Source: Beroe forskalii
Lineage: Eukaryota > Ctenophora > Nuda > Beroida > Beroidae
Assembly (NCBI GenBank): GCA_011033025.1
Contig: WFMF01000034.1
Coordinates: 682,001 to 746,000 of the forward strand
DNA length: 64,000 bases
Direction: 5' to 3'
The notes beneath the pieces are model-generated. The model did not search any database. It was not told the DNA's origin and saw only the letters and a list, made by a program, of their open reading frames with translations. This document shows positions 23,504-49,850 of this stretch, in pieces. Position numbers and translations under genes: made by a program. The stretch's first letter is position 1. Each line of letters opens with the position of its first letter.

Positions 23504-23879
23504 ATTTGCCGTGTCTGTAACTTTTTACCACCGAATCCCACCCTTATCGGACTTTCACCCCATTCCTTTTTAGACTCTTGCCAACAACATCCAATCGGTC
23601 TTATGCCGCGGATAAGCGCGGAAAATGGTCAAATCGGCCGTCAAAGATCGGTGGTCGTAATTAAAACGACGCGATTTTCGACGTGATTACGCGTCAAATC
23701 GCGTCGGTTTCCGATAAACCACAAATCTTTGACGGCTGATTTGAGCATGTTCCGCGCTTTTCCGCGGAATAAGGCCGATTGCATGTTGTTGGCAAGAGTC
23801 TAAAAAGGAAGTGGGTGAAAGTCCGATAAGGGTGGGATTCGGTGGTAAAAAGTTACAGACACGGCAAATATCATAAAAC
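23504..23879. mobile_element. Foldback MITE, ATTTGCCGTGTCTG ends, copy 1
   Basis: Two arms of about 170-185 bp are inverted copies starting ATTTGCCGTGTCTGTAAC. The same peptide-like frame (CRVCNFLPPNPTLIGLSP) is read inward from both ends. Arms differ by several substitutions, so they are older than the large duplication around them. Confidence 0.8.
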
Positions 23880-23884
23880 AAGCT

Positions 23885-24685
23885 CAAATGTTCGTTATTA
23901 TGCAGCTAAGATAAACACGAAAAAGCGAGTATAGACAGATAGACTATATGTACATATTTCAAACACAAAGGATAATTGGAAACCATAAACCGAACTCGAA
24001 AGTGAATAAAGACTTAAAACAAATGCGAAAGTCGACTTTAAATTACTGCATAAGCATTTTTTACTCTTATCCCCTCTTATCACTCAACTGAAAATCGAAA
24101 TGAGCATTTGCATTCAGCCCAATAAAGTACTTAGATTTGCTCACTAAGTTAGTATCACGAAAAAGCTGATTAAATATGAGGCTTGACATGATTACATTCA
24201 TTAGCTTCAAACTCAAAACAACAATTAACTGTGACTATTTTACTGATATTTGATAGTGATGCCCATTCGACGAGTTGCTTTAGTTTCACACTGATCACTG
24301 CATGAATACTGCATCTGGTCCATCATCACAGTCCTGAGGCACGACTAGAGTTCCCTGAAAGAGATCTCAGTAGTCATGGGTTTATTTGAGAAGTTCAGGG
24401 AACCAATTTATCCACCATCTCCCTTACCTGAGATAGACCCATAGTGGAATCCGAAAAATATGCGCGCCGTGGAATTCGGCGCGCCACGCGCGTTAATAAT
24501 ACGGTAACTGCTTTCAGAAATCCTTTACTTTATGAAAATCTCATTTGGGAAGACCCTCAGGAGATGATTCCGCGAGGTGGATGCAATTTGAGAAAATCCG
24601 CGCGCGCTCATTATAAGCGATTGAGCTGGATCCAGTTGAGAAAATTTTCTCATTTCCTTAAAAGTGACTTCGATTGACTGAATTA
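23885..24685. other. Duplicated unit, no gene
   Basis: AT-rich sequence without supported ORFs. A GC palindrome (GCGCGCCGTGGAATTCGGCG) lies near 24462. The matching stretch in the second copy is 28045-28850. Confidence 0.4.
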
Positions 24686-24769
24686 TGACTGAGTTATGAC
24701 TGAATAGCCCATAAAAGTTGCCCTGGATGGTTTCTAAGAGTCTTAGATAGAGTCAGTCTTTCGCCGATT

Positions 24770-25910
24770 TTGGAACAAAAATGGAACAAAATCGGAACAA
24801 ATATGTAACAATTGTAAGCATATGTTTGCGGCCAGAGTTTGGTTTGGTTTGACTTTCTAATCACGTAAATGTGTTGTAGATACATTGAATCGATAGTTCT
24901 GATAAATTTTTAGGATCAGCCAGCCGTCATGGCGCCACCAGATAGCCGCCAAAGCCACCTATTTTCGTACGCATATATGCCGATTTTTTGAGCTGTTTTG
25001 ACCATTCCAAATGGGTCATAGGTACTCAAATTGTTGCTACAGATGTTCTAGAGAGTGTATCTGATGATATTTCATCCGTACGTCACGTTGGAAACGTTTG
25101 AGGAAGTGGAACATAGTTTCTGGAAAAAGTGGAACAAATGTGTAACAATTGTAAGCATATACACGTATGCGTGTAACAATTGTAAGCATATGTTTGCGGC
25201 CAGAGTTTGGTTTGGTTTGACTTTCTAATCATGTAAATGTGTTGTAGATACATTGAATCGATAGTTCTGATAAATTTTTAGGGTCACAGCCGTCATGGCG
25301 CCACCAGATAGCTGCCAAAGCCACCTATTTTCGTACACATATATGCCGATTTTTCGAGCTGTCTTGACCAGTCCAAATGGGTCATAGGTACTCAAATTTT
25401 TGCTACAGATGTTCTAGAGAGTGTATCTAATGATATTTCATCCGTACGTCACGTTGGAAACGTTTGGAGAAGTGGAACATAGTTTCTGGAAAAAGTGGAA
25501 CAAATGTGTAACAATTGTAAGCATATACGCGTATGCAACAATTGTAAGCATATGTTTGCAGCCAGAGTTCGGTTTGGTTTGACTTTCCAATCACGTAAAT
25601 GTGTTGTAGATACATTGAATCGATATTTCTGATTGGTTTTAGGGTCAGCCAGCCGTCATGCCGTCAGATAGCCGCCAAAGCCACCTATTTTCGTACGCAT
25701 ATATGCCGATTTTTCGAGCTTTTTGACCAGTCCAAATGGGTCATAGGTACTCAAAATAATGCTACAGATGTTCTAGAGAGTGTATCTGATGATATTTCAT
25801 CCGTATGTCACGTTGGAAACGTTTGGAGAAGTGGAACATAGTTTCTGAAAAAGTGGAACAAATGTAACAATTGTTATTACACGCGTATGCGTGTAACAAT
25901 TGTGCTACGT
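24770..25910. repeat. 368-bp satellite, block in copy 1 (~3 units)
   Basis: TAGATACATTGAATCG recurs at 24878, 25246 and 25606, giving a 360-368-bp period. Each unit has GCCGTCATGGCGCC, TATGCCGATTTTT, GGAACATAGTTTCTGG, and an internal palindrome of ACAATTGTAAGCATATACGC and its inverse. Confidence 0.9.
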
Positions 25911-27237: not shown

Positions 27238-30085
27238 CGCATAGGTGTGTGTACGCGCGCGGCGCTTCCCTGGGGAAGCGCGCCGCGCAACGCAGACAGG
27301 GATATACGTGTTTAGCAAACTCACTATAGGCCAGTTTCGCGAGGGGCGGCACCAGGCAGATTTTACGACGCGCGAAATTTGAAAAGTACCCCCTCTTCAA
27401 GGACAACTTTCACAGTGCTAATATTCTGTTTACCACTAGAAGTGCGGTTTTTCTGATTCTTGTAGGATGTTACCCTACCCTCCGCCGCGCACACAGCGGC
27501 GGAGGGTAGGGAGCGGTGCAACACGACCCTCCAACCCTTCGAGTGTTGCGCGCTAGGGATGGGAGAAATCCATCAATCTGATTCAAGAAAGACAGCTGAT
27601 TGTCACTGTATGTTTCATTTTCCAAAATACCAACATTTCATATGGTTTCTATACTCCCAAACTTGGGCAATTTGCCGTGTCTGTAACTTTTTTACCGAAT
27701 CCCACCCTTATCGGACTTTCACCCCATTCCTTTTTAGACTCTTGCCAACAACATCCAATCGGTCTTATGCCGCGGATAAGCGCGGAAAATGGTCAAATCG
27801 GCCGTCAAAGATCGGTGGTCGTAATTAAAACGACGCGATTTTCGACGTGATTACGCGTCAAATCGCGTCGGTTTCCGATAAACCACAAATCTTTGACGGC
27901 TGATTTGAGCATGTTCCGCGCTTTTCCGCGGAATAAGGCCGATTGCATGTTGTTGGCAAGAGTCTAAAAAGGAAGTGGGTGAAAGTCCGATAAGGGTGGG
28001 ATTCGGTGGTAAAAAGTTACAGACACGGCAAATATCATAAAACAAGCTCAAATGTTCGTTATTATGCAGCTAAGATAAACACGAAAAAAGCGAGTATAGA
28101 CAGATAGACTATATGTACATATTTCAAACACAAAGGATAATTGGAAACCATAAACCGAACTCGAAAGTGAATAAAGACTTAAAACAAATGCGAAAGTCGA
28201 CTTTAAATTACTGCATAAGCATTTTTTACTCTTATCCCCTCTTATCACTCAACTGAAAATCGAAATGAGCATTTGCATTCAGCCCAATAAAGTACTTAGA
28301 TTTGCTCACTAAGTTAGTATCACGAAAAGCTGATTAAATATGAGGCTTGACATGATTACATTCATTAGCTTCAAACTCAAAACAACAATTAACTGTGACT
28401 ATTTTACTGATATTTGATAGTGATGCCCATTCGACGAGTTGCTTTAGTTTCACACTGATCACTGCATGAATACTGCATCTGGTCCATCATCACAGTCCTG
28501 AGGCACGACTAGAGTTCCCTGAAAGAGATCTCAGTAGTCATGGGTTTATTTGAGAAGTTCAGGGAACCAATTTATCCACCATCTCCTTACCTGAGATAGA
28601 CCCATAGTGGAATCCGAAAAAATATGCGCGCCGTGGAATTCGGCGCGCCACGCGCGTTAATAATACGGTAACTGCTTTCAGAAATCCTTTACTTTATGAA
28701 AATCTCATTTGGGAAGACCCTCAGGAGATGATTCCGCGAGGTGGATGCAATTTGAGAAAATCCGCGCGCGCTCATTATAAGCGATTGAGCTGGATCCAGT
28801 TGAGAAAATTTTCTCATTTCCTTAAAAGTGACTTCGATTGACTGAATTATGACTGAGTTATGACTGAATAGCCCATAAAAGTTGCCCTGGATGGTTTCTA
28901 AGAGTCTTAGATAAGTAGATAGAGTCAGTCTTTCGCCGATTTTGGAACAAAAATGGAACAAAATCGGAACAAATATGTAACAATTGTAAGCATATGTTTG
29001 CGGCCAGAGTTTGGTTTGGTTTGACTTTCTAATCACGTAAATGTGTTGTAGATACATTGAATCGATAGTTCTGATAAATTTTTAGGATCAGCCAGCCGTC
29101 ATGGCGCCACCAGATAGCCGCCAAAGCCACCTATTTTCGTACGCATATATGCCGATTTTTTGAGCTGTTTTGACCATTCCAAATGGGTCATAGGTACTCA
29201 AATTGTTGCTACAGATGTTCTAGAGAGTGTATCTGATGATATTTCATCCGTACGTCACGTTGGAAACGTTTGAGGAAGTGGAACATAGTTTCTGGAAAAA
29301 GTGGAACAAATGTGTAACAATTGTAAGCATATACACGTATGCGTGTAACAATTGTAAGCATATGTTTGCGGCCAGAGTTTGGTTTGGTTTGACTTTCTAA
29401 TCATGTAAATGTGTTGTAGATACATTGAATCGATAGTTCTGATAAATTTTTAGGGTCAGCCAGCCGTCATGGCGCCACCAGATAGCCGCCAAAGCCACCT
29501 ATTTTCGTACACATATATGCCGATTTTTCGAGCTGTCTTGACCAGTCCAAATGGGTCATAGGTACTCAAATTTTTGCTACAGATGTTCTAGAGAGTGTAT
29601 CTAATGATATTTCATCCGTACGTCACGTTGGAAACGTTTGGAGAAGTGGAACATAGTTTCTGGAAAAAGTGGAACAAATGTGTAACAATTGTAAGCATAT
29701 ACGCGTATGCGTGTAACAATTGTAAGCATATGTTTGCAGCCAGAGTTCGGTTTGGTTTGACTTTCCAATCACGTAAATGTGTTGTAGATACATTGTATCG
29801 ATATTTCTGATTGGTTTTTAGGGTCAGCCAGCCGTCATGGCGCCGTCAGATAGCCGCCAAAGCCACCTATTTTCGTACGCATATATGCCGATTTTTCGAG
29901 CTTTTTTGACCAGTCCAAATGGGTCATAGGTACTCAAAATAATGCTACAGATGTTCTAGAGAGTGTATCTGATGATATTTCATCCGTATGTCACGTTGGA
30001 AACGTTTGGAGAAGTGGAACATAGTTTCTGGAAAAAGTGGAACAAATGTGTAACAATTGTAAGCATACACGCGTATGCGTGTAAC
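27238..30085. repeat. Large duplication, copy 2
   Basis: Tandem, same-orientation copy of 23072-25905. Small indels (for example TTTTTACCACCG against TTTTTTTACCG, and A-run length) separate the two. It includes the matching foldback MITE and runs into a longer satellite block. Confidence 0.9.
27670..28033. mobile_element. Foldback MITE, ATTTGCCGTGTCTG ends, copy 2
   Basis: Same structure as 23504-23879. Carried along by the duplication, so not an independent insertion. Confidence 0.75.
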
Positions 30086-31735
30086 AATTGTAAGCATATG
30101 TTTGCGGCCAGAGTTCGGTTTGGTTTGACTTTCCAATCACGTAAATGTGTTTTAGATACATTGAATCGATATTTCTGATTGGTTTTTAGGGTCAGCCAGC
30201 CGTCATGGCGCCGTCAGATAGCCGCCAAAGCCACCTATTTTCGTACGCATATATGCCGATTTTTTGAGCTGTTTTGACCAGTCCAAATGGGTCATAGGTA
30301 CTCAAATTGTTGCTACAGATGTTCTAGAGATTGTATCTGATGATATTTCATCCGTACGTCACGTTGGAAACGTTTGGAGAAGTGGAACATAGTTTCTGGA
30401 AAAAGTGGAACAAATGTGTAATAATTGTAAGCATATACGCGTATGCGTGTAACAATTGTAAGCATATGTTTGCAACCAGAGTTTGATTTGGTTTGACTTT
30501 CTAATCACGTAAATGTTTTGTAGATACATTGAATCGATAGTTCTGATAAATTTTTAGGATAAGCCAGCCGTCCTGGCGCCACCAGATAGCCGCCAAAGCC
30601 ACCTATTTTCGTACGCATACATGCCGATTTTTTAGCTGTTTTGACCAGTCCAAATGGGTCATAGGTACTCAAATTGTTGCTACAGATGTTCTAGAGAGTG
30701 TATCTGATGATATTTCATCCGTACGTCACGTTGGAAACGTTTGGAGAAGTGGGACATAGTTTCTGGAAAAAGTGGAACAAATGTGTAATAATTGTAAGCA
30801 TATATACGCGTATGCGTGTAACAATTGTAAGCATATGTTTGCAACCAGAGTTTGGTTTGGTTTGACTTTCTAATCACGTAAATGTGTTGTAGATACATTG
30901 AATTGATAGTTCTGATAAATTTTTAGGATAAGCCATCCGTCCTGGCGCCACCAGATAGCCGCCAAAGCCACCTATTTTCGTACGCATATATGCCGATTTT
31001 TCGAGCTTTTTTGACCAGTCCAAATGGGTCATAGGTACTCAAATTGTTGCTACAGATGTTCTAGAGAGTGTATCTGATGATATTTCATCCGTACGCCACA
31101 TTGGAAACGTTTGAGGAAGTGGAACATAGTTTCTGGAAAAATTGGAACAAATGTGTAACAATTGTAAGCATATACGCGTATGCGTGTAACAATTGTAAGC
31201 ATATGTTTGCAACCAGAGTTTGGTTTGGTTTGACTTTCTAATCATATAAATGTATTGTAGATACATTGAATCGATAGTTCTGATAGGTTTTTGGGGTTGA
31301 TAAGCCGTCATGGCGCCGCCAGATAGCCGCCAAAGCCACCTATTTCCGTACGCATATATGCCGATTTTTCGAGCTGTTTTGACCATTCCAAATGGGTCAT
31401 AGGTACTCAAATTGTTGCTACAGATGTTCTAGAGATTGTATCTGATGATATTTCATCCGTACGTCACATTGGAAACGTTTGAGGAAGTGGAACATAGTTT
31501 CTGGAAAAAGTGGAACAAATGTGTAACAATTGTAAGCATATTATATACGCGTATGCGTGTAACAATTGTAAGCATATGTTTGCGGCCAGAGTTTGGTTTG
31601 GTTTGACTTTCTAATCATATAAATGTATTGTAGATACATTGAATCGATAGTTCTGATAGGTTTTTGGGGTTGATAAGCCGTCATGGCGCCGCCAGATAGC
31701 CACCAAAGTCACCTATTTTCCGTCAGAAACTATTT
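28940..31735. repeat. 368-bp satellite, expanded block (~8 units)
   Basis: Head-to-tail units of about 368 bp continue about 1.65 kb past the end of the duplication. Later units vary in the central palindrome (CATATACGCGTATGCGTGTA) and in GGATAAGCCAGCCGTCC against GGGTCAGCCAGCCGTCA. ORFs with YAYNCYTFVPLFPETM are read from the repeat. Confidence 0.9.
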
Positions 31736-32450
31736 TCCACTTCCTCAAACGTTTCCAACGTGACGTACCGATGAAATATCATCAGATACACTCTCTAGAG
31801 CATCTGTAGCAATATTTTGAGTACCTATTACCCATTTGGACTGGTCAAAACAGCTCGAAAAATCGGCATATATGCGTACGAAAATATAGGTGGCTTTGGC
31901 GTTCATCTGGCGCCGCCATGACGGCTGGCTGACCCTAAAAACCAATCAGAAATATCGATTCAATGTATCTACAACACATTTACGTGATTGGAAAGTCAAA
32001 CCAAACCGAACTCTGGCCGCAAACATATGCTTACAATTGTTACACGCATACGCGTATATGCTTACAATTGTTACACATTTGTTCCACTTTTTCCAGAAAC
32101 TGTCTTCCACTTCACCAATCGTTTCCAACGTGACGTACGGATGGAATATCATCAGATACACTCTCTAGAACATCTGTAGCAACAATTTGGGTACCTATGA
32201 CCCACTCTAAACCCTTAAAATTGCTTGAAAAAGCGGTATTTTCGAGTATGATAATAGGTGGCCTTGGCGGCTATGTAGCGTCACCATGGCGGCTTATCAA
32301 CCCTAAAAACTTATCAAAACTATTGATTCAATCCCACTACAACATATTTGCATCATCAGAACTTCAATCCTGACTGAACTCTGGTCCCTGGTATATGCTT
32401 ACAATTGTTACACGTATACGCGTATATGCTTACAATTGTTACAATTTGTT
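31736..32450. repeat. Inverted and decayed 368-bp units
   Basis: At about 31735 the orientation flips: GAAACTATTTTCCACTTCC begins about one unit in reverse orientation, followed by a more diverged one (GGCGGCTATGTAGCGTCACC). It ends at the border with the 326-bp satellite. Confidence 0.8.
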
Positions 32451-32459
32451 CCACTTTTG

Positions 32460-33485
32460 GGGAAAGATCATATGCTTAGATACTTTTGGGCCCTACAATG
32501 GGCGAAAAAAGGCCCAAAAAGGCCGAATTTTAAAATTATCCAAAAATCATTTCTATCTACTCAGATGTATTTGGACAAATCCTAGGAAGCTTTCAGCGTG
32601 GTTTTTTGGACCGAAAATCACTTGTTTCTGCCCGTAAGGCGATGAATCCTCTCCGAAAAATGTGGATACAGCTTAGGAAAATTTTTGAGAAAATGGTTTT
32701 ATACGTGTTTTAAGGCCTTAAAATGGTTGGAACATGATAGGGGAGCAAAAAAAAGGTTACTCTAGATGGTTTTTAAGAGTCTTGGTCACTTTAGGGCCTC
32801 CGATGGGTGAAAAATTTCCGGAAAGGGCCAAATTTCAACATTTCTATCATTGCACTGTATGTATCGAGACATCCTAGCAAACATTCTGCGTGGTTTTTAG
32901 ACTGCAATTCGTCCGTGAAGAGTTGAGAAAATGTGGATACAGCTTGGGAACATGTTGAGAAAATGGTTTTGGGTGTTTCTAGGCCTGAAAATGGCTGGAA
33001 CATTGCAGGATAGCAAATATGAGTTGCCCCAATAGATTTTTGGGAGTCTCGGTCAATTTTGGGTCCAAAATGGGCGTAAAACGGCCAAAAAATGCCGAAT
33101 CTTGAAATTTCTCAAACTTCATTCCTATCAATGTATAATTGCAGATATCAGAAGGAGCATTCTGTGTGGTTTTAAGATCGCAATTCGCTTATTTCCACCC
33201 ATGAGGAGTTTTATCCACGTGAGAAAATACGGTTTGATGCGTGTTTACGCCTGAAAATGAACACAAATGGTTGGAACATGAAAGTATAACGAATAGGAGT
33301 TGCCATAGACGGTTTTAACGAGTCCTGGTCACTTTAGGGCCCTACGATGGGCGAAAGAGGCTTAAAATGTCCATAAAGGCCGAATTTTGGAAATATAATT
33401 GTCCCAATTTCATTTCTATCGACTCAAATGTATTTGTAGAATTCGTTTATTTCCGCCCATGAGGAATTGTATCAATTGAGAAAAT
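32460..33485 (+). repeat. 326-bp satellite, diverged left block
   Basis: Three to four diverged units share GGGCGAAAAAGGCCCAAAAA, GGCCGAATTTTAAAATT, TTTCTATC(G/T)ACTCA(A/G)ATGTA and TTGAGAAAATGGTTTT. The array is broken at about 33485 by the KDZ element and resumes at about 41820. Confidence 0.75.
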
Positions 33486-33822
33486 CAATATGTTTTCACA
33501 CCTTCACCCAGCCCATAGAAAGATGGCTATGAAATTGGCTAAACACAACTAAATTGTGTTGAGATTTCATTAATCTTGAAAATTCATAATCTCGTGAGAA
33601 ATTTGGTAGCGTTATCAGACACAGTTCAGGTTTCTTCCACTCCTGTACTTCGTCACAGCCAGATGGAGAGTCTCATCACGCAGGTAGGTCCTACCCTTAG
33701 GTGATCATTGCAATCATTGCATGCGGCATGTGGCAAGGTGGGGACATTCCAATCATCAGTATCAAGACCATGATGGGATACGTGATGCTGACGTAGTGAC
33801 GTATCTAGAAGCAGGGGTTTAG

Positions 33823-33830
33823 TATATATA
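33823..33830 (+). promoter_or_regulatory. Candidate TATA box of the KDZ element
   Basis: TATATATA in AGTATATATACAGC, upstream of the 40-bp array. A pyrimidine-rich TTTATTTCCTTTCAG follows about 90 bp later, so a short 5' exon and intron are conceivable. Confidence 0.4.
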
Positions 33831-33925
33831 CAGCTGCTGCACTGAATCATTGCTCTCATTTTAACTCAGTTATCATCAGAGCATTTTACAGTGTTTTTCA
33901 ACACTTACTTCTTTATTTCCTTTCA

Positions 33926-34872
33926 GTGTTTGACGCTAACCTCTAGCTCACACTTACTACCTTCAGTGTTTGACGCTAATCTCTAGCTCACACTTACTAC
34001 CTTCAGTGTTTGACGCTAATCTCTAGCTCACACTTACTACCTTCAGTGTTTGACGCTAACCTCTAGCTCACACTTACTACCTTCAGTGTTTGACGCAAAT
34101 CTCTAGCTCACACTTACTACCTTCAGTGTTTGACGCTAATCTCTAGCTCACACTTACTACCTTCAGTGTTTGACGCTAATCTCTAGCTCACACTTACTAC
34201 CTTCAGTGTTTGACGCTAATCTCTAGCTCACACTTACTACCTTCAGTGTTTGACGCTAATCTCTAGCTCACACTTACTACCTTCAGTGTTTGACGCTAAT
34301 CTCTAGCTCACACTTACTACCTTCAGTGTTTGACGCTAATCTCTAGCTCACACTTACTACCTTCAGTGTTTGACGCTAATCTCTAGCTCACACTTACTAC
34401 CTTCAGTGTTTGACGCTAATCTCTAGCTCACACTTACTACCTTCAGTGTTTGACGCTAATCTCTAGCTCACACTTACTACCTTCAGTGTTTGACGCTAAT
34501 CTCTAGCTCACACTTACTACCTTCAGTGTTTGACGCTAATCTCTAGCTCACACTTACTACCTTCAGTGTTTGACGCTAATCTCTAGCTCACACTTACTAC
34601 CTTCAGTGTTTGACGCTAACCTCTAGCTCACACTTACTACCTTCAGTGTTTGACGCTAATCTCTAGCTCACACTTACTACCTTCAGTGTTTGACGCTAAT
34701 CTCTAGCTCACACTTACTACCTTCAGTGTTTGACGCTAATCTCTAGCTCACACTTACTACCTTCAGTGTTTGACGCTAATCTCTAGCTCACACTTACTAC
34801 CTTCAGTGTTTGACGCTAATCTCTAGCTCACACTTACTACCTTCAGTGTTTGACGCTAACCTCTAGCTCACA
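33926..34872 (+). repeat. 40-bp tandem array, about 24 units
   Basis: Units read TGTTTGACGCTAATCTCTAG followed by CTCACACTTACTACCTTCAG. They are exactly 40 bp and nearly identical, varying mainly at TAAC/TAAT. The array lies between the TATA box and the first ATG of the KDZ gene. It has no spacers, so it is not a CRISPR array. Confidence 0.95.
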
Positions 34873-34981
34873 TTCTGACACTCCGTGGTCGAGATTTTGC
34901 TCCCCATCAGTTTTAGTGGAAGAGTCCTTAATCCGACCCAGTTTTTGATTGGGAGTCCTTACTCCCAACTTCCCAATCATC

Positions 34982-37900
34982 ATGGATGATTCATTAATAA
35001 CGTCCTATTGCCAGTTGATAAGTAGTGAGCAGCTTATTGGCGACTACTTCGGTATCTATGTCCACAAGTTAGGGGACCCACTTCCTCCCCTATCGTGCAC
35101 ATACTCAGAAGATTTTACTGTATGTAGCTCTGTTGTGCTGCAGCTAGACTGCGGGTCTTGGGTTTTCATCACAAATGCAAAAAACCGACCCAGAGAACAA
35201 TACGTTAATCTGTTTTGCTCCAACAGGGTAAACTTCACTTACCCTCTACCTGATAGCATCAAGGTATTGATCAGACACTTTTTCCCGAGTAAGCAAACAG
35301 TAAATGTATTTTCTAGCAATACTGGCGTGGATACTAATGGTTCAGTCTTGGCCTTACTCAACCTTTATGGCACCTCTCTATTTAATCGAATGATAGATTC
35401 TGCTAAGCTAGCGCAGGAAGATGTTTATGATTCAGTGGTTAGTGCATTCAAACAGTCTGTGTCGGATAAGAGAGTCGTTCGGTTTACTGACAATGAAATG
35501 TACTCAGTATTCATCCCACTTGGGGATTGGCCGAAAGTATCATATTCAGTTGAAGTGTTCAGTGACGAGGAAATGGTTACTTACAGGGCCAATAAGTCCA
35601 AGAAGCTTCAACGTGATATCTCAGCTACTTCCAATGTTAACATTGCATCAGTAGCATCTTCGGTCACTGCTAAAACGGAAGATCCAATTTCTGACTATGT
35701 GCTGTCAAGTGACGATGATGACTTTGAGATCCCGGTCTTTTCAGACAAAAAACCAGACCAGGTTGATCCTGTCACACGTCTTGCATCAATTAGAGCACTT
35801 GTTGATGATTCCTCTGATAAACAAACATCGTATTCTAATCCCATTTCACAGTCTAATCCATCTAAAATGGAAGTTTCTGTAGCCAGCAATTCACCAATTA
35901 GAAGTTCAAAAAACCATGATGAAGTTTTTGTTGAAACATCCACTCCTTCGAATTCTATTTCAAACGGTGTTGGCAATGATAAAGTCAAACCTAAAATTCC
36001 AGTTGACACAAAAAGACTGTTGCCAAACCCACCAACACTGCGACAGTTGCCAAACCCACCTATTACTTCATCCGTCAAACGTATTCAAACTGATCCTAAT
36101 TTGGTTAATTCTGCTGATAGAAGTGATAATCCAACCAGGCGCGATATTCATATTCTTGATCAGCACCTCGGAGGCAAGGATAAAGGCTCAAAATTGGTTT
36201 CCGAATACAAATTGAGAATGAAATGTGATCTACAGTCTTGTCTGAATACTACAGTGAAATTCCCTCTGCACTATCACTGCTTATTCTGTAAGGTTTGGCA
36301 GTATAAAGATTTTAAACGTGCCGTTAGTCACATGCTGAAATGCAAAGATTCTGCGTCAAGAAGTGTGCCAGTTGGAGATGATACTGGCAGCAGTGTGCCA
36401 GTCGTAGCTGATGATACTGGCAGCAGTGTGCCAGTCGTAGCTGATACTGGCAGCAGTGTGCCAGTCGTAGCTGATACTGGCAGCAGTGTGCCAGTCGTAG
36501 CTGATACTGGCAGCAGTGTGCCAGTCGTAGCTGATACTGGCAGCAGTGTGCCAGTCGTAGCTGATACTGGCAGCAGTGTGCCAGTCGTAGCTGATACTGG
36601 CAGCAGTGTGCCAGTGTCAACTGATACTCATACTGGCAGCAGTGTGCCAGTGTCAACTGATACTGGCAGCAGTGTGCCAGTGTCAACTGATACTCATACT
36701 GGCAGCAGTGTGCCAGTGTCAACTGATACTGGCAGCAGTGTGCCAGTCGTAGCTGATACTGGCAGCAGTGTGCCAGTCGTAGCTGATACTGGCAGCAGTG
36801 TGCCAGTCGTAGCTGATACTGGCAGCAGTGTGCCAGTCGTAGCTGATACTGGCAGCAGTGTGCCAGTCGTAGCTGATACTGGCAGCAGTGTGCCAGTCGT
36901 AGCTGATACTGGCAGCAGTGTGCCAGTCGTAGCTGATACTGGCAGCAGTGTGCCAGTCGTAGCTGATACTGGCAGCAGTGTGCCAGTCGTAGCTGATACT
37001 GGCAGCAGTGTGCCAGTCGTAGCTGATACTGGCAGCAGTGTGCCAGTCGTAGCTGATACTGCCACTGGCAGCAATGTACACATCGTTGTTGAAAGCAGTA
37101 TGTCATCCTTATTAATTCCTTGTTGGGACAACAAGAAATCATCATGTGTTACTAGTAGTAGTACGAAGAGGAAGAAGGTTAAACATTATCATTGTAAATA
37201 TTGCGGCCATGCTCATGTTTCTAAGTCGAGGATGAGTAAGCATGTTCTGAAGTGCGAGGCACAGCACGTTTCGGCCCCTGTTCCTATGGTATCAAATGAT
37301 GGTCGTGCGAACAAGAAAATGCATAAAGCTGACCGATCTAATGCTTTGCAGGCAGAGCTGATATGTCCTAAGATGAGTATATGGGCAGTTAGAAACACTC
37401 TCCAGGGACCAGCTGCCCCAATCCATGTGACTTGCAATAAGAAGGGATGGGAGTGTAGTTCAAACATTTGTCAGGATACATATAACTTCCATGCAAACAA
37501 CCTGCAGCCTAGTTTTGTTTGCGATCATGTGCAAGCATGTATTGATAAAAATTCGTCCTCATCATCAGCTGTAAGTGTAGCCGACCTCTTTAATGATCAA
37601 ATTTCACTAAGTAGTTTCAGTGAATCTGACAGGGAATCTATCACCACATTTTGTGCAGATGCTAAAAACTTAGGCACCCCTGTTATCAGGCAGTATATCC
37701 CTACAATGGTGGATAGTAGCGCTACTTCTCGCTACATCTATTACAGTGTATTTGCCGGGACAGGGGATGTAAAATATTATAGTAAGATGGGCCGTGTAAT
37801 TGTAACCTACGACAGGAGACTAAAAACGCACAAGTGCGAATGTTCCACGCCTTCTTGTAACCATAAGAAAATCAGCACGTTGATATCCCAGGGTAGTACA

Positions 37901-38281
37901 GAAGTAAGTTCTGACCGCCCTGAAGATGAAATCAATCAAGAGGAGGTTACATTTGCTAACGACATGATGGATTACGTTTTAGAACATAAACCGATCCCTT
38001 TTGATATGTCTCCGTATTATGACATGAAACCGATGAAAGAGTTTGAACCATGTGAAACTTCTTGTCACAAATGTAATGTTGATCTGGTTGTTTCCAATAT
38101 CAACAGGAGGGGTACAATCTTTGAAATGTTTAAGAAAACAACGGGGGTGACTATCATAACTAAAAAATGCCCCTCGTGTTCGACTGAATTCCGTTATTCA
38201 GAACACAAGGACGGGTATTTTAATTTCAACAACAACTCTATCTTTTCATCCTTACTCATGGAAGTTGGTCTCAGGTCTTGA
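34982..38281 (+). CDS. KDZ element protein 1: zinc fingers, repeat linker, SWIM-like finger and zinc ribbon
   Basis: 1,099 codons from the first in-frame ATG (MDDSLITSYC); the frame is open 11 codons further up, but without a Met. A Ser/Asp-rich N-terminal part leads to a C-x2-C-x12-H-x3-C finger (HCLFCK...HMLKC, about 36270-36340). Next comes a linker of about 23 tandem GSSVPVVADT repeats, then a second finger of the same spacing (HCKYCG...HVLKC, about 37190-37255). Further on is CECSTPSCNH (C-x-C-x4-C-x-H, SWIM-like). Near the end are CHKC and CPSC with GYFNFNNNSIFSSLL, typical of the region just before the KDZ catalytic core. The ORF stops 15 bp before the next one opens. A 45-bp intron (38268-38312, phase 1) would join them; a frameshift is the alternative. 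Confidence 0.75.
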   Translation: MDDSLITSYCQLISSEQLIGDYFGIYVHKLGDPLPPLSCTYSEDFTVCSSVVLQLDCGSWVFITNAKNRPREQYVNLFCSNRVNFTYPLPDSIKVLIRHFFPSKQTVNVFSSNTGVDTNGSVLALLNLYGTSLFNRMIDSAKLAQEDVYDSVVSAFKQSVSDKRVVRFTDNEMYSVFIPLGDWPKVSYSVEVFSDEEMVTYRANKSKKLQRDISATSNVNIASVASSVTAKTEDPISDYVLSSDDDDFEIPVFSDKKPDQVDPVTRLASIRALVDDSSDKQTSYSNPISQSNPSKMEVSVASNSPIRSSKNHDEVFVETSTPSNSISNGVGNDKVKPKIPVDTKRLLPNPPTLRQLPNPPITSSVKRIQTDPNLVNSADRSDNPTRRDIHILDQHLGGKDKGSKLVSEYKLRMKCDLQSCLNTTVKFPLHYHCLFCKVWQYKDFKRAVSHMLKCKDSASRSVPVGDDTGSSVPVVADDTGSSVPVVADTGSSVPVVADTGSSVPVVADTGSSVPVVADTGSSVPVVADTGSSVPVVADTGSSVPVSTDTHTGSSVPVSTDTGSSVPVSTDTHTGSSVPVSTDTGSSVPVVADTGSSVPVVADTGSSVPVVADTGSSVPVVADTGSSVPVVADTGSSVPVVADTGSSVPVVADTGSSVPVVADTGSSVPVVADTGSSVPVVADTGSSVPVVADTATGSNVHIVVESSMSSLLIPCWDNKKSSCVTSSSTKRKKVKHYHCKYCGHAHVSKSRMSKHVLKCEAQHVSAPVPMVSNDGRANKKMHKADRSNALQAELICPKMSIWAVRNTLQGPAAPIHVTCNKKGWECSSNICQDTYNFHANNLQPSFVCDHVQACIDKNSSSSSAVSVADLFNDQISLSSFSESDRESITTFCADAKNLGTPVIRQYIPTMVDSSATSRYIYYSVFAGTGDVKYYSKMGRVIVTYDRRLKTHKCECSTPSCNHKKISTLISQGSTEVSSDRPEDEINQEEVTFANDMMDYVLEHKPIPFDMSPYYDMKPMKEFEPCETSCHKCNVDLVVSNINRRGTIFEMFKKTTGVTIITKKCPSCSTEFRYSEHKDGYFNFNNNSIFSSLLMEVGLRS
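36371..37065 (+). repeat. 30-bp coding minisatellite in KDZ protein 1
   Basis: About 23 units of ACTGGCAGCAGTGTGCCAGT plus CGTAGCTGAT, with a GTGTCAACTGATACTCATACT variant in the middle. CTGGCAGCAGTGTGCCAG is an imperfect palindrome. The long minus-strand ORFs here (QYQLRLAHCC) are shadows. Confidence 0.95.
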
Positions 38282-38312
38282 CATAAAAATACATCATTGA
38301 CGTCCTTCCTAG

Positions 38313-39766
38313 ATATTGTAAGTATTGCGTCAAAGTTTAAGTATAATGTCCATTTGATACTGAATGCAATTAAATCGTATTTGTCACTCAAAGACATGGG
38401 CTATACCGACAACTTTTCTTGTCTGAGGTGTGGAAATCATCCCATTTACCTTGATTATGATGTGATACGGAATGTTTGTTTCGATGTTGATCCCTCTGAC
38501 ATTGAAGATCATACATATTCTAGCTTTTCTGAGTTTTTCCAGGATTGTCGTAAACATGATTTATGCAGGTCTTACCTAAATCCCAAATCACAGCATTATA
38601 GTAGCAATGTCAACAGTTTTGCTGTCAAACTATCTCAATCCCTACCTCCATTCATTTCTCCTAAGAACTTTGACACATTAGGACCCTATACTAGGCCTTT
38701 GATTGTTAATGATCGGCCAGAAGAGATATCTCTTCCTTTAGAGAGAATTGAACAGATTGCAAAAGGCAAGAACTCGTATAGAGAGTTAAAAAATTTGTGC
38801 AAGAATTTTAAGTTAGACACTCGTGGGGGCAAGAAACACATGGTTGCTAGACTAATCGATTATGAGCGCAATGCCGAGGTGTATTCAATAATCCGTAAGA
38901 AATTCACTAAGCTGACTGGAAAATCGGGAGGCATTCTTAGAGCATTTTGTCCTCATGGTATAACATATGCACTAAAATTCCTAGTATTGCCTGAGTCAGT
39001 GGCTGATTACACTCATGTTCTATCAGGGTTCAAAATTCAGCCCAATTTCAACTTTTCTGATATAGCATCCCTCCTTGCTAAACATACCAACAATCATTAT
39101 CCTGGTTTTTTCAGACCCTATATGGGTCGCATAGATGATCCATCTGATGCCCTATCTGATTTATACAAGGATGGTAGAAAGAAGGCTATGTTTGATTTCA
39201 GCAACTATGTAACAACTCAAGTTGACGTTTCAAACCTGAACCATGATTCAGCACACCCTGTAAGTAAAATGTGCTCTGTTTTGTCACTGTATGATAGATT
39301 CCACGAGCCAAATCACCATGAATTTGACACTCATCTCAGATCTATCGACAGCACTAATTTGGTTGGTACACTGAATACTTCAGTAGCTGAGCAGCAAAAC
39401 CATGTGCTTAGTCTGAAGAAGAGCTATTGTAATGAGATGAAATCCTCTCAGCACATGAAGCTTGTAACTTTTATAAGCAGTTCACACAATCAGAGGATAA
39501 ATGATAACTGGATATCACTCCGAAAAAAGAAACAACCTGATGTCAACTTTTCTGTTGACGATCTTGGTTTTCTTTGTGTTGAGGGGATTGATAAACCTAT
39601 CCTAGATCACTGTAATTTGGACTTCGTGAGTACAAAATCACCATTTCCTGTCTCCCTCTTGCAGGATCCGTCTGGAAGTTCTTCAGCTTTAAACTCAGTA
39701 GCATATTCTCTAGCTCATTCTCATGCTGCAGACCCCGTTTGCGAGGCGACACAATGTTTGACATAG
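38313..39766 (+). CDS. KDZ transposase core with SAP domain
   Basis: Open frame from 38297 with no ATG near its start, consistent with a downstream exon (acceptor CCTTCCTAG|AT at 38312). FSCLRCGNHPIYLDYD gives a Cys pair and the likely first catalytic Asp (near 38453-38461). A SAP-like helix-turn-helix follows at about 38785-38860 (ELKNLCKNFKLD...MVARLIDYE), usually DNA-binding. CPHGITYALKFLVLPESVAD then NFSDIASLLAKHTN (Asp near 39059), and NTSVAEQQNHVLS (Glu at 39389) match the order of conserved blocks in KDZ transposases and the related vertebrate HMGXB3 domain. The catalytic assignment is inference. There is no stop within the core, so this copy may be recent. It ends TAG 7 bp before ORF3 opens. 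A 72-bp phase-0 intron (39737-39808) could join them. Confidence 0.75.
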
Positions 39767-39772
39767 CCCTTA

Positions 39773-41104
39773 TTGTCCTTTGCCAGTTGCAAAACCGATT
39801 ACTGCCAGACGACTCATTTTTCGATCAAGCAATTCGTTGATAAGAAGCTCAGTGACAATGGACTGACAGCAGATCCGATTTCTATCCTTAAATCCTGTTT
39901 CTTGCCTGATCTAAAAACAGCTGGAGTGTTGCATTCCATTCATGAAGCAACTACGTCAAACATGAGCTTATCAATGCAAAATTGCTTGAAATTCGACAAG
40001 CCCAATGATTTCATTTTTCTATCAAGGCCTTCTAAAATAGCGTATTTCAATGGACCTAAGACTCATTTCGACTTTCCGTTTCGTGGCAATGTTTTACGCT
40101 ACAAACTTGCCGCTTTTGTCTCTAAAACACATCACGACAACGTCTATTCAAGCTCGTCTTGCTTATCTGATACATACTTTACAGTTTGTAATATCAATAC
40201 AAGCAAAATTGACGAAGTAGTTTTCTTAGAAACGTCGAGAACAGCAGAATATCTGATTTTTAAACTCGATGCACCACTAAAAGCGAAGGAATCATTTACC
40301 CCCAGGGATGGTAACTTGAAAAGATCAGTGAACAATATTGCTGACGATCCTTTTGAATTCACAACACTTCCCAAATCATCGAAGAGGGTGAAAGTCAAAG
40401 TTTCTAGTAATCAACTTGTCAATTCCCCGAGTCATCAGTGGCTCCAATATTCTGATACTGGACGCCTTGATTTATTTTCAGATCAGTTCCGGATTTGTCA
40501 CTCACAGAATCAGAAATATGACGATATTATCGTTAACTCGTATGCTCGAATGTGCCAAATAAACAGGAGGAATAGCTTCATATACCAAGATAGCTGCTTA
40601 AGTACCCCTTTCACAAGCTGCTTCGGAGGGTTTAAATCAGTAGACGCCAAGTTCATTCAAATTATCAATCGAAGTAATGAGCACTGGTTTTGCGTTTCAA
40701 ATGCGTTAACATTCATCTCAGAACCCAATGTTGTTGAAATTTTCGACTCCCTGGTTCATGGCTCTCTACGTACCATGAATGTTGTTCCCCATTATTTGAC
40801 AAGGCACATTTTACAGTTGAGGCCTAACACTGATTGTATTAGGTATGTTAATGTTCAGCAACAAGCTCCAGGAACGGTTGATTGTGGACCCATGGCGCTA
40901 GGATTTCTATGGAGTCTCTCTCACGGGCACCATCCTAAAGTGTACGACCAACTTCAAGCTGGGATGATCAGGAAAAGAGTCCGGGAGAGTTTTATAAATA
41001 ACAGGTTTTGTCCTCCATGCAATACCTCACCTAGAAATTACCCTAAATCTGTTTTGAAAGAGTTTAAACTCAATGGCAGTACTGGACAATTCAACTTAGC
41101 ATAA
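39773..41104 (+). CDS. Ulp1/adenain-like C48 cysteine protease of the KDZ element
   Basis: 443 codons. The C-terminal third has the Ulp1 catalytic layout: His in NEHWFCVSN (about 40680), Asp in EIFDSL (about 40745), Gln in VQQQAPGT and nucleophile Cys in VDCGPMALGF (about 40882). C48 proteases cleave SUMO-like or polyprotein junctions and are common passengers in large DNA transposons. The N-terminal two thirds is not recognised; it has a basic patch KSSKRVKVKV. The frame starts without a useful ATG, which favours splicing from the transposase ORF. The minus-strand ORF 40144-40398 is a shadow. Confidence 0.75.
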   Translation: MSFASCKTDYCQTTHFSIKQFVDKKLSDNGLTADPISILKSCFLPDLKTAGVLHSIHEATTSNMSLSMQNCLKFDKPNDFIFLSRPSKIAYFNGPKTHFDFPFRGNVLRYKLAAFVSKTHHDNVYSSSSCLSDTYFTVCNINTSKIDEVVFLETSRTAEYLIFKLDAPLKAKESFTPRDGNLKRSVNNIADDPFEFTTLPKSSKRVKVKVSSNQLVNSPSHQWLQYSDTGRLDLFSDQFRICHSQNQKYDDIIVNSYARMCQINRRNSFIYQDSCLSTPFTSCFGGFKSVDAKFIQIINRSNEHWFCVSNALTFISEPNVVEIFDSLVHGSLRTMNVVPHYLTRHILQLRPNTDCIRYVNVQQQAPGTVDCGPMALGFLWSLSHGHHPKVYDQLQAGMIRKRVRESFINNRFCPPCNTSPRNYPKSVLKEFKLNGSTGQFNLA

Positions 41105-41815
41105 TTGCGCAGCAGAATGGAAAAATGGTTTGGTTGCTTGATTACCGAACTATTCTCTATATGATACTATTATAACATATATTTTGTATCATTTATCAAC
41201 TTATTAATGAGTTCTGTTTTTATAAAATGATATTCAACGTATTTTCAGTGACAGTAACGGCCGCAGATTCGGCTGATGTAACGATACAACATTCAACAAA
41301 ATGTATAACGAATATGACAGTCAATCAGTATGACGCCCAGGATGTTTATTAACAAACCAGTCAGTGTATTGATTTATGAATACATTAAAAATTGCCATGC
41401 CGATAAAAGTGGCAAATCTTCGATGAAGAGCCTAGGACTACGAATGCCTTCATTTTTGAAGTAGCTGGCAAAACATTATTTGAAACATTTATTTCTGATA
41501 CTTTTTAATAAGAAATAGATAAATACATCAAACTGTATTACCTATTTCTGTATTTATTTCATTATTTCAAAACAATATAAACCAGTTTACAATTGCTTAT
41601 CAGAAGCACAAGGGAGGGTAATAGATCATTGTTGTTTTCCTTTGATCGGCGGACTTAGAGGGTCACTAAATTTCAAAAATACCCTCTTTCAACCTTCACG
41701 GGGTCCCTCCTGTTGCCTCTGGGACTTTTAAAACCCAGGGAACCAAAAGTCCGTTATCTCTGCACAGATCATTAATTAACTAACGCTCATATAATCAACG
41801 GCGCAACTTTGTGTT
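41105..41815. other. 3' flank of the KDZ gene
   Basis: AT-rich non-coding sequence with several AATAAA-like words and a weak hairpin (GACTTAGAGGGT with ACCCTCTTTC) near 41650-41700. Presumed 3' UTR and right end of the element. Confidence 0.4.
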
Positions 41816-42838
41816 TTTTGGGTTTAAAAATCACGCAGAATATGTCGATAGAAATCAAATTTGGGTAGTTTTAAAATTCGGCCTTTTTGGGCCATCGTGG
41901 GGCCCAAAATTTGCCAAAATTTAGGATGTCTAAAAACACATTTGAGTCAATAGAAATCAGATGCATCCAAGTAAGAAAATGCACTTGAGAAAATGTGGAT
42001 GCATTTTCTCAACTTTAAAGAAAATGGTTTTGTGCGTGTTTTATTAAAGTATTAAGGCCTGAATATGATCAGAAATGGTTGAAACATGAAAGTATAGTAA
42101 ATTCGAGTTGCCCTAGGCGATTTTTAAGAGTTTTGGTAAATTTTGGGCTCCACAATGGCCGAAAAAGGCCCAAAAAGGCCGAATTTTAAAATTGCCCAAA
42201 TTTGATTTCTATCGACTCAAATGTGTTTGTAGACATCCTAGGACACATTCTGCGTGGTTTTTAGACCGAAAATCGCTAAAATCCGGCCCTGAGGCGATGC
42301 ATCCAAGTGAGAAAATGGACTTGAGAAAATGTGGATGCATTTTCTCAACTTTTGAGAAAATGGTTTTGTGCGTGTTTTAAGGCCTGAAAATGATCAGAAA
42401 TGGTTGAAACATGAAAGTATAGTAAATAAGAGCTGTTGCCCTAGGCGATTTTCAAGAGTTTTGGTAAATTTTGGGCCCCACAATGGCCGAAAAAGGCCCA
42501 AAAAGGCCGAATTTTAAAATTGCCCAAATTTGATTTCTATCGACTCAAATGTGTTTGTAGACATCCTAGGGTCACACATTCTGCGCGGTTTTTAGACCGA
42601 AAATCGCTAAAATCCGGCCGTGAGGCGATGCATCCAAGTGAGAAAATGGACTTGAGAAAATGTGGATGCATTTTCTCAACTTTTGAGAAAATGGTTTTGT
42701 GCGTGTTTTAAGGCCTGAAAATGATCAGAAATGGTTGAAACATGAAAGTATAGTAAATACGAGTTGCCCTAGGCGATTTTTAAGAGTTTTGGTAAATTTT
42801 GTGCGTGTTTTATTAAGGCCTGAAAAGGCCTTTTTGGG
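41816..42838 (+). repeat. 326-bp satellite, mostly plus-orientation block
   Basis: After a short reverse-oriented piece at 41830-41935, plus-oriented units follow. The same 62-63-codon frame (MPKFDFYRLKCVCRHPR) starts at 42192 and 42520. It tracks the repeat, with no sign of selection. Confidence 0.9.
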
Positions 42839-44935
42839 CCTTTTTCGGCCATTGTGGACGTTATAGTTTCAAAACTCTTAAAAATTGCCTAGGGCAATCA
42901 CTATACTTTCATGTTTCAACCATTTCTGATCATTTTCAGGCCTTAAAACACGCACAAAACCATTTTTTCTTGAGAAAATGCATCCACATTTTCTCAAGTC
43001 CATTTTCTCACTTGGATGCATCGCCTCACGGCCGGATATTTTAGATTTTGGTCTAAAACCACGCAGAATGTGTCCTAGGATGTCTACAAACACATTTGAG
43101 TCGATAGAAATCAAATTTGGGCAATTTTAAAATTCGGCCTTTTGGGCCTTTTTTCGGCCATTGTGGGGCCCAAAATTTACCAAACTCTTAAAAATCGCCT
43201 AGGGCAACTCGTATTCACTATACTTTCATGTTTCAACCATTTCTGATCATTTTCAGGCCTTAAACACGCACAAAACCATTTTTCAAAAGTTGAGAAAATG
43301 CATCCACATTTTCTCAAGTCCATTTTCTCACTTGGATGCATCGCCTCACGGCCGGATTTTAGCGATTTTCGGTCTAAAAACCACGCAGAATGTGTCCTAG
43401 GATGTCTACAAACACATTTGAGTCGATAGAAATCAAATTTGGGCAATTTTAAAATTCGGCCTTTTTGGGCCTTTTTCGGCCATTGTGGGGCCCAAAATTT
43501 ACCAAAACTCTTAAAAATCGCCTAGGGCAACTCGTATTCACTATACTTTCATGTTTCAACCATTTCTGATCATTTTCAGGCCTTAAAACACGCACAAAAC
43601 CATTTTCTCAAAAGTTGAGAAAATGCATCCACATTTTCTCAAGTCCATTTTCTCACTTGGATGCATCGCCTCACGGCCGGATTTTAGCGATTTTCGGTCT
43701 AAAAACCACGCAGAATGTGTCCTAGGATGTCTACAAACACATTTGAGTCGATAGAAATCAAATTTGGGCAATTTTAAAATTCGGCCTTTTTGGGCCTTTT
43801 TCGGCCATTGTGGGGCCCAAAATTTACCAAAACTCTTAAAAATCGCCTAGGGCAACTCGTATTCACTACACTTTCATGTTTCAACCATTTCTGATCATTT
43901 TCAGGCCTTAAAACACCCACAAAACCATTTTCTCAAAAGTTGAGAAAATGCATCCACATTTTCTCAAGTCCATTTTCTCACTTGGATGCATCGCCTCACG
44001 GCCGGGATTTAGCGATTTTCGGTCTAAAAACCACGCAGAATGTGTCCTAGGATGTCTACAAACACATTTGAGTCGATAGAAATCAAATTTGGGCAATTTT
44101 AAAATTCGGCCTTTTTGGGCCTTTTTCGCCCATTGTGGGGCCCAAAATTGACCAAGACTCTTAAAAATCGCCTAGGGCAACTTGTATTCACTACACTTTC
44201 ATGTTTCAACCATTTCTGATCATTTTCAGGCCTTAAAACACCCACAAAACCATTTTCTCAAAAGTTGAGAAAATGCATCCACATTTTCTCAAGTCCATTT
44301 TCTCACTTGGATGCATCGCCTAATTGCCGGATTTGAGCGATTTTCGGTACCGCAGAATGTGTCCTAGGATGTCTACAAACACATTTGAGTCGATAGAAAT
44401 CAAATTTGGGCAATTTTAAAATTCGGCCTTTTTGGGCCTTTTTCGGCCATTGTGGGGCCCAAAATTTACCAAAACTCTTAAAAATTGCCTAGGGCAACTC
44501 GTATTCACTATACTTTCATGTTTCAACCATTTCTGATCATTTTCAGGCCTTAAAACACGCACAAAACCATTTTCTCAAAAGTTGAGAAAATGCATCCACA
44601 TTTTCTCAAGTCCATTTTCTCACTTGGATGCATCGCCTCACGGCCGGATTTTAGCGATTTTCGGTCTAAACCACGCAGAATGTGTCCTAGGATGTCTACA
44701 AACACATTTGAGTCGATAGAAATCAAATTTGGGCAATTTTAAAATTCGGCCTTTTTGGGCCTTTTTCGGCCATTGTGGGGCCCAAAATTTACCAAAACTC
44801 TTAAAAATCGCCTAGGGCAACTCGTATTCACTATACTTTCATGTTTCAACCATTTCTGATCATTTTCAGGCCTTAAAACACGCACAAAACCATTTTCTCA
44901 AAAGTTGAGAAAATTTTCTCAAGTGCATCCAAGTG
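42839..44935 (-). repeat. 326-bp satellite, minus-orientation block (~6.5 units)
   Basis: Orientation flips at about 42838 in AAGGCCTGAAAAGGCCTTTT. The repeat then runs in reverse with a period of about 325 bp (frame starts 43446, 43771, 44096) and very high identity between units. It ends in GAAAATTTTCTCAAGTGCATCC. Confidence 0.95.
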
Positions 44936-45014
44936 CATCCAATTTGCATCCACTTTGGCGGAATCATGAACTCAAGACCCTTTTGAAAATATATTGCCAA
45001 ATTGGGACAAAGTG

Positions 45015-46869: not shown

Positions 46870-47325
46870 TTTGCCAGAATGGGAAGAAGCTGGGTCCAGA
46901 ATTTAGCTGTTTTGCCATCACGTGACAGCTGTTTTGCCATCACGTGACAGGGGTGCAGCCATACCACGTGATGATCATTATCGGGAAGCTGGTTCCAGAT
47001 TATAGCTGTTTTGCCAACTCGGTATCCCTCCCTTCTAGGTCACGTGACATTCGTTTTGAGAAGCTGGTTCCAGAATATAGCTGTTTTGCCAACTCTGTCT
47101 CCCTCGTTTCTAGGTCACGTGACATCCTTTATAAGAAGCTGGGATCAGATTATAGCTGTTTTGCCAACTCTGTCTCCCTCCCTTCTAGGTCACGTGACAT
47201 CCTTTATAAGAAGCTGGTTCCAGATTATAGCTGTTTTGCCAACTCTGTCTCCCTCGTTTCTAGGTCACGTGACAGCCTTAATAAGAAGCTGGTTCCAGAT
47301 TATAGCTGTTTTGCCAATGTTTGCG
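46870..47325 (+). repeat. Subterminal ~74-bp repeats, left
   Basis: Units contain AAGCTGGTTCCAGATTATAG, CTGTTTTGCCAACTCTGTCT, CCCTCCCTTCTAG and GTCACGTGAC. The perfect GTCACGTGAC palindrome recurs in each unit. The ORF reading YSCFANSVSLPSRSRDI is a by-product. Confidence 0.9.
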
Positions 47326-49234: not shown

Positions 49235-49850
49235 TACATGCAAACATTGGCAAAACAGCTATAATCTGGACCCAGCTTCTTATTGTGACCAAGAAGGGAG
49301 GGAGACAGAGTTTGCAAAACAGCTGTTATCATTCAGTATAATCTTATTACTTAATTAATACTTTAATACCAATATCGTTATTAATAATTGTCACTTGTTG
49401 GATATTGTATTGGGATGTACTCACTTTTACCAAGGCTGAATCTTTCTGTTTTCTCAAATGTGTACTGTGTAGGTAGTGTGTAGTGTACACAAATTACACG
49501 CAAACATTGGCAAAACAGCTATAATCTGGAACCAGCTTCTTATTAAATCTGCCAGGTGACCTTAAAGGGAGGGATACAGAGTTGGCAAAACAGCTATAAT
49601 CTGGAACCAGCTTCTTATAAAGGATGTCACGTGACCTAGAAAGGAGGGAGACATAGTTGGCAAAACAGCTATAATCTGGAACCAGCTTCTTATAAAGGAT
49701 GTCACGTGACCTAGAAGGGAAGGAGACAGAGTTGGCAAAACAGCTATAATCTGGACCTAGCTTCTTATAACAGCTGTCACGTGATCTAGAAGGGAAGGGA
49801 CCAAAGTTGGCAAAACAGCTATATTCTGGAACCAACTTCTCTGCAAAATT
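49235..49850 (-). repeat. Subterminal ~74-bp repeats, right (inverted)
   Basis: Same unit as 46870-47325 on the opposite strand (TTGGCAAAACAGCTATAATC, GTCACGTGAC), about six copies. Confidence 0.9.

Follow-up and report, generated by a model that had tools for sequence, protein, structure and literature searches.

Within the 64,000-nucleotide stretch of the Beroe forskalii contig WFMF01000034.1 analysed here (hereafter the window, to which all coordinates refer), the plus strand carries a large transposase gene at 34982–41104, which lies between tandem repeat arrays and, farther out, between two short terminal tips. The whole, from 28722 to 44973, is in our judgement very probably a cut-and-paste DNA transposon of the KDZ/Zisupton type, with a single gene broken by two internal stops, two dissimilar tips, and an 8-bp target-site duplication (TSD). 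In the sections below, we discuss the gene and its stops, the domains of its protein, the ends of the element and their relatives elsewhere in the genome, and the place of this element among known systems.

The gene and its two internal stops

Three long plus-strand frames are found at this locus (34949–38281, 38282–39766, and 39767–41104), which the initial annotation had described as three abutting open reading frames (ORFs) lying 6–15 bp apart. They are in fact consecutive stretches of a single frame of 6156 bases or 2052 codons (34949–41104), interrupted by an in-frame TGA at 38279–38281 and an in-frame TAG at 39764–39766, and the distances of 6 and 15 bp are those to the next TTG. The first ATG that fits the sibling copies lies at 34982, and the gene from there to 41104 comprises 2040 codons and a terminal stop codon; it has no frameshift and, apart from the TGA and the TAG, no internal stop. 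The frames can be taken to exceed chance because frames that contain matches elsewhere in this genome reach 2506 codons and because the ratio of nonsynonymous to synonymous substitution rates (dN/dS) is about 0.04.

The siblings were found by a translated search of the genome (216 Mb, 1134 contigs) with the middle of the three pieces, which gave 27 matches including the window, some of them pieces of one copy; 15 of the other 26 lie in open frames of 950–2506 codons (one with a stop inside the match) and 11 in frames of 61–860 codons. The five close siblings, L021 to L025, share 92, 91, 85, 85, and 83% protein identity with the middle piece, and in all five the alignment runs gapless through both stop sites, where they have sense codons. 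Two of the five are themselves damaged, L022 by stops of its own and a frameshift and L023 by a stop near the N-terminus. Comparison of the middle piece with L021 and L022, the nearest two, gives a dS of about 1.4, a dN of 0.053, and a dN/dS of 0.038–0.039, and the DNA of the final 4.3 kb of the gene is about 78% identical; outside the gene neither of these two has a match to the window, and L024 and L025 are similar to parts of the window leader or promoter.

It had been proposed that the three ORFs are genuine and are joined by splicing or expressed as a polyprotein, and both candidate introns (38268–38312 and 39737–39808, of 45 and 72 nt) are indeed bounded by GT...AG, with lengths that are multiples of three. 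However, the residues that splicing would remove are retained without gaps in 5/5 siblings, and the first stop falls inside a domain, the CxC4 model running on through the TGA, so that we regard this explanation as extremely improbable. Slightly less so, although still very unlikely, is that the window copy is active because a suppressor tRNA, editing, or some other form of readthrough or recoding overcomes the stops. Such recoding would suit a middle piece that is highly conserved and a gene that, despite its large divergence from the nearest siblings, has acquired just two stops and not one frameshift over its 2040 codons. Against it, the siblings have sense codons at both sites, the two stop codons differ (TGA and TAG), and, with 4.0% of single substitutions making a stop, a neutral divergence of about 0.008 substitutions per site would be expected to produce two. 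Most likely, the gene was broken recently by mutation, because a long-dead gene at this divergence would carry many stops and only two are present; an assembly error or polymorphism may also lie behind them. The window copy probably yields only truncated products and no full-length protein, and retains ends that the transposase of a sibling could use. The long ORFs had been read as free of internal stops and therefore as a sign of recent activity; the two stops argue instead that the window gene is now broken. Elsewhere in the genome there are uninterrupted frames and 36 more paired-tip elements. The locus illustrates that a single disrupted gene may be mistaken for three fused ORFs.

Domains of the transposase

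The motifs named in the initial annotation (CxC zinc-type motifs, SAP, CPHGITYALKF at 38948–38980, NTSVAEQQ at 39374–39397, and an H-D-Q-C Ulp1 set) were all recovered from the sequence or by Pfam, which reports CxC4 at 29.4 bits (cut-off 26.9), SAP (PF02037) at 24.7 (23.9), and Peptidase_C48 (PF02902) at 21.8 (20.7) in the three pieces. All features of the gene lie on the plus strand. Toward the N-terminus, two C2HC-type fingers recognized from sequence (36269–36343 and 37184–37255, the second with the consensus HFHCxxC...RxxxHxxKC in a 19-row alignment of homologues, A1) stand on either side of an in-frame array of a 30-bp unit (TGSSVPVVAD, 22.8 copies, 36362–37061). In 15 of the 19 sibling loci, too, the frame contains or overlaps tandem arrays whose period is a multiple of three, with units that differ from locus to locus, as judged by eye; the same inspection revealed no array there in L029, L030, L034, and L038. 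A SWIM-like CxCx4CxH motif follows at 37835–37864, with its three zinc ligands C, C, and H present in 18/18 rows of A1; the Pfam SWIM model matches only two of the 19 homologues, with a best E of 0.038. Next comes the CxC4 cysteine cluster at 38033–38320, which contains the TGA and scores 37.4 bits, above the cut-off, with the KDZ-associated profile PF18717 in the genome search; at an E-value of 1 or less, this profile matches 17 of the 19 homologues, and it marks 19 places in the genome, the window included.

The proposed catalytic residues of the core are D60 of the middle piece (38459–38461), D260 in the motif SDIA (39059–39061), and E370 in VAEQQN (39389–39391), all invariant in the 15 rows of a second alignment, A2, as are C47, C50, C223, and H225. 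The SAP domain (38774–38869) lies between the first and second D, which agrees with the earlier placement of a SAP-like helix pair inside the core. These patterns suggest a DDE core split by SAP, in which the D-D-E residues would be catalytic, and the CxxC and CxH pairs of the core are read as a zinc site. A search of PDB sequences with the middle piece returned none at E up to 1, and Pfam gave only sub-threshold matches for six middle and four N-terminal regions.

The C-terminal Ulp1/C48 protease domain (40661–40978, PF02902) carries H at 40682, D at 40745, Q within 40856–40864, and C at 40883; where letters exist in A1, H is invariant in 14/14 rows, D in 13/13, and C in 13/13, and the domain, as far as its residues indicate, is most likely catalytically active as a SUMO or ubiquitin-like protease. 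In the region between the core and Ulp1 of two siblings (L021:7140–8009 and L025:7033–7875), the stretch GNCSALNSVAYSL looks by eye like the cysteine box of a ubiquitin-specific protease (USP); Pfam reports nothing for this likeness, and the cysteine is lost in the window and in L022.

Ends, repeat arrays, and short relatives

The interval first annotated, 34982–41104, marks the limits of the gene only, and the true ends of the element lie outside it. The element spans 16,252 bp (28722–44973), with identical copies of the 8-bp duplication AAGACCCT at 28714–28721 and 44974–44981, each at offset 6 outside ATGATTCCGC. End A (28722–28910, plus strand) starts with CAGGAGATGATTCCGC directly behind the left copy; its tip, CAGNAGATGATTCCGC, is distinct from that of end B (44934–44973, minus strand), which, read inward, begins GAGTTCATGATTCCGCC, closes at 44973, and is followed by the right copy. 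Terminal inverted repeats (TIRs) are present, in that both tips carry ATGATTCCGC in inverted orientation and arrays on the two sides are inverted relative to each other at 66–69% identity. The search for other copies, ends, TIRs, and target duplications that had been recommended earlier yielded the tips, the limits at 28722–44973, and the 8-bp TSD. Placing the element limits at the edges of the gene was ruled out by tips and TSD farther out. Short TIRs beside the gene were sought in the window and 18 sibling loci (L021–L038), and besides the window arrays the only candidates to emerge were L035 (99 bp at 73%, within its own 520-bp array) and low-complexity stretches of L026.

The duplication in the window was spotted by eye and is for that reason not an independent test of the ends, which was provided by the rest of the genome. 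The tip A pattern (at most two mismatches) occurs at 90 places as against 2 for its reversed control, and the tip B pattern (at most three mismatches) at 57 as against 0. Within 20 kb, and with each tip used once, 37 inward-facing A/B pairs are found, the window and C791 counted, compared with 7 outward-facing and 4 same-strand combinations. For the TSD test, 20 of the 37 pairs were picked by eye, with the window and C791 left out and 81 bases taken per end: at the fixed offset of 6 bases an exact 8-bp duplication was present in 15 of the 20, 7/8 positions agreed in one, and 2/8 in four (C155, C717, C725:110500, and C153), whereas controls (symmetric offsets 3–5 and 7–10, and 380 cross-pairings) never exceeded 6/8. 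The sampled pairs span 1.1–6.2 kb and are most likely nonautonomous elements, because 19 of the 20 are shorter than the 6.1-kb gene. Four of the five close siblings (on contigs C1, C717, C791, and C1002) also have an A-type tip, at a distance of 2.0–6.3 kb beyond the gene; the one on C1002 has its outermost six bases altered. Four insertions (L045, L071, L077, and L079) have the common flank AAAAACTAGCAAT at slightly differing offsets, a recurrent target sequence. At three places (C304:19048/19102, C544:24494/24538, and C529:123799/123859) no more than about 60 bp separates a B tip from an A tip, which looks as if elements had inserted beside the ends of others. A screen of viral contigs for relatives gave seven pattern matches, none of them confirmed.

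These data also bear on the superfamily to which the tips belong. MULE elements create 9-bp duplications and hAT tips follow the rule 5'-YARNG; the duplications here are 8 bp, and the tips, CAGNAG (A) and GAGTTC (B), violate the hAT rule, although tip A begins CAG. It is accordingly very improbable that the tips come from another 8-bp-duplicating superfamily such as hAT and that the KDZ-like gene is a passenger, all the more as the ends enclose no other stop-free frame of at least 200 codons, save a reverse reading of the repeat array, and as A-type tips also lie past four of the five sibling genes. The length of the duplication would suit such a passenger, 8-bp duplications being made by hAT elements as well, according to a passage of PMC12730594.

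Between the left tip and the gene lie, in order, satellite arrays of a 368-bp unit (28976–32458, direct at 28976–31720 and related but inverted at 31724–32458), an array of a repeat of about 325 bp (32484–33440, minus strand) that is 66–69% identical, in inverted orientation, to stretches of 42827–44914, a TATA-type core promoter GTATATATAC (33822–33831, plus strand), and a leader array of a 40-bp unit (33922–34872, plus strand; 23.8 copies, 99% matches). Beyond the gene, the right arrays of the 325-bp repeat occupy 41960–44914, of which 41960–42826 reads on the minus and 42827–44914 on the plus strand. By eye, a block similar to the promoter recurs in L023, L024, L025, and L035, and a leader unit of 34–43 bp has been amplified behind such a TATA block in the window, L023, L024, and L025. 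L023 and L024 have weaker relatives of the 325-bp unit (62–67%) upstream of their genes, where Tandem Repeats Finder gives periods of 324 and 314 bp, and L025 has a 314-bp array upstream of its gene that starts 22 bases inside its B tip.

Contig C241 holds two 5'-partial copies, L041 and L042, which are 97.5% identical to one another and match the window leader region at 88 and 86%, respectively. L041 is additionally similar to window 28721–28910, beyond the 368-bp arrays (84.7% over 190 bp between its left part and end A), and the arrays themselves have no match in either copy. The limits of identity in these fragments (331–3173 in L041) were considered as element ends and rejected, as their outer breaks resemble other insertions. 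L042 is interrupted near 3107 by a short palindromic-looking insertion, GGGATCGTTCACATATTACGTAATC, possibly a Harbinger-like miniature inverted-repeat transposable element. Within the window, 23072–25903 and 27238–30091 are the two copies of a local duplication (98.8% identity) that includes both the left flank and end A; a second copy of end A accordingly stands at 24558 with the same AAGACCCT ahead of it. Farther right, two 75-bp tandem arrays in inverted orientation (46985–47317 and 49507–49840) are possibly the ends of another element, and 57084–62021 holds ORFs for a GDSL esterase, an endonuclease, and a reverse transcriptase, the esterase coming first, which we take to be a CR1-like LINE (long interspersed nuclear element).

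The orientation of the ends differs among copies: the window has end A on the 5' side of its gene and end B on the 3' side, while the four siblings on C1, C717, C791, and C1002 have their A-type tip 3', and C791 has a B tip 5' of the gene. This swap could have come about by inversion between inverted arrays. We put forward, tentatively and with more doubt than conviction, that these elements form a distinct KDZ lineage with obligatory one-A/one-B ends, fast-turning satellite arrays in termini and leader, and array recombination that swaps the ends; if so, one protein would serve both end arrangements as well as many short nonautonomous elements.

Relation to known systems and proposed mechanism

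The combination of zinc motifs, CxC4, SAP, and Ulp1, first annotated as a KDZ element, is supported as such by profile matches, tips, and 8-bp duplications. Zisupton, reportedly described from the platyfish by Boehne et al. in 2012 as a zinc finger SUMO protease transposon, is said to unite zinc motifs and a C-terminal Ulp1 domain in one large element, with a gene of 24 exons. The Beroe element resembles it in these modules, in its TIRs, and in its 8-bp duplications; it differs in that Zisupton genes are multi-exonic while the siblings here have one uninterrupted frame (in the genome sequence, frames of 1775–2506 codons hold 7 of the 27 matches), in its asymmetric tips and satellite arrays in the termini, and, on a weak negative discussed below, in leaving PF18758 unmatched. 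TIRs and 8-bp duplications are given for Zisupton in a passage of PMC12730594, and the Zisupton elements of Pristionchus are described, in part of PMC9297572, as having 18 and 31 exons in two groups and undetectable target duplications. Among the fungal KDZ elements, Dileera and Kyakuja, the Dileera element Zisupton-1_PGr shares the 8-bp duplication, whereas Kyakuja families have 7-bp duplications and CA..TG ends without TIRs (passages of PMC12730594); no TET/JBP domain, a further point of difference, was reported by Pfam in the window gene. KDZ1 of Cryptococcus, as excerpted from PMC12810828, is likewise a large element (about 11 kb) with TIRs, 8-bp duplications, and a zinc-chelating CxC domain, but has CxC1 and TIRs of 241 bp where the Beroe element has CxC4 and arrays. 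Ginger1 and the Mutator elements with Ulp1 also join a transposase to a C-terminal Ulp1 domain; their transposase cores are different (Gypsy-integrase-like in Ginger1), and the passages of PMC2836005 that deal with them do not mention CxC4. In the literature searched we found no published account of this transposon family. The element is a new member of the known KDZ/Zisupton kind, large and intron-free in appearance, whose termini are built of satellite arrays and which has many short relatives.

Several observations weigh against this assignment. The KDZ core profile PF18758 matched nowhere in the genome, the three pieces, or the 19 homologues, a negative that is weak because the control of the genome scan was silent too, and the element is filed as KDZ/Zisupton-type, provisionally as regards this profile. 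An RNase H fold of the core is predicted from conserved residues, and a passage in a 2013 paper places Zisupton among the superfamilies without a DDE transposase (PMC3706591), although a later paper speaks, in the part cited, of a KDZ catalytic core (PMC12810828). Both ends together with a duplication were seen around a gene-bearing element only in the window: in C791 the two tips are present, but the flanks do not match over 8 bp at the fixed offset, searches of C1 and C717 for a TSD plus tip at the left end (B-type tip only) came back empty, and C225 has no tip nearby in the genome-wide tip A and tip B results. Finally, no near-identical copy of the gene was found in the genome (the best is about 78% in DNA), so that recent movement of the window element rests on the exact duplication. 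This last point, together with the strong purifying selection, is what a KDZ-derived host gene family, domesticated and no longer mobile, would lead one to expect; we nevertheless hold domestication to be most unlikely, given the tips and exact 8-bp duplication around the gene and the many paired-tip relatives.

For a mobile KDZ/Zisupton-type element, the following mechanism is the most likely. The protein of about 2040 residues would consist of an N-terminal domain, the fingers around the repeat linker, the SWIM-like and CxC4 modules, the SAP-split DDE core, and the C-terminal Ulp1 domain, with the zinc, CxC4, and SAP modules presumably holding the DNA. By analogy with known DDE transposases, the protein would recognize the A and B tips and cut there, and the cut ends would be joined to the target across the 8-bp stagger; the ends and the stagger are observed. 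The Ulp1 protease probably acts on SUMO or ubiquitin-like marks and eases transposition or protects the protein, a role comparable to one suggested for Ulp1 in other transposons in a passage of PMC2836005. Exact tips, a TSD, gene limits, and short relatives are now defined for one eukaryotic KDZ family, and with such defined substrates both the recognition of the ends and the role of Ulp1 become testable.

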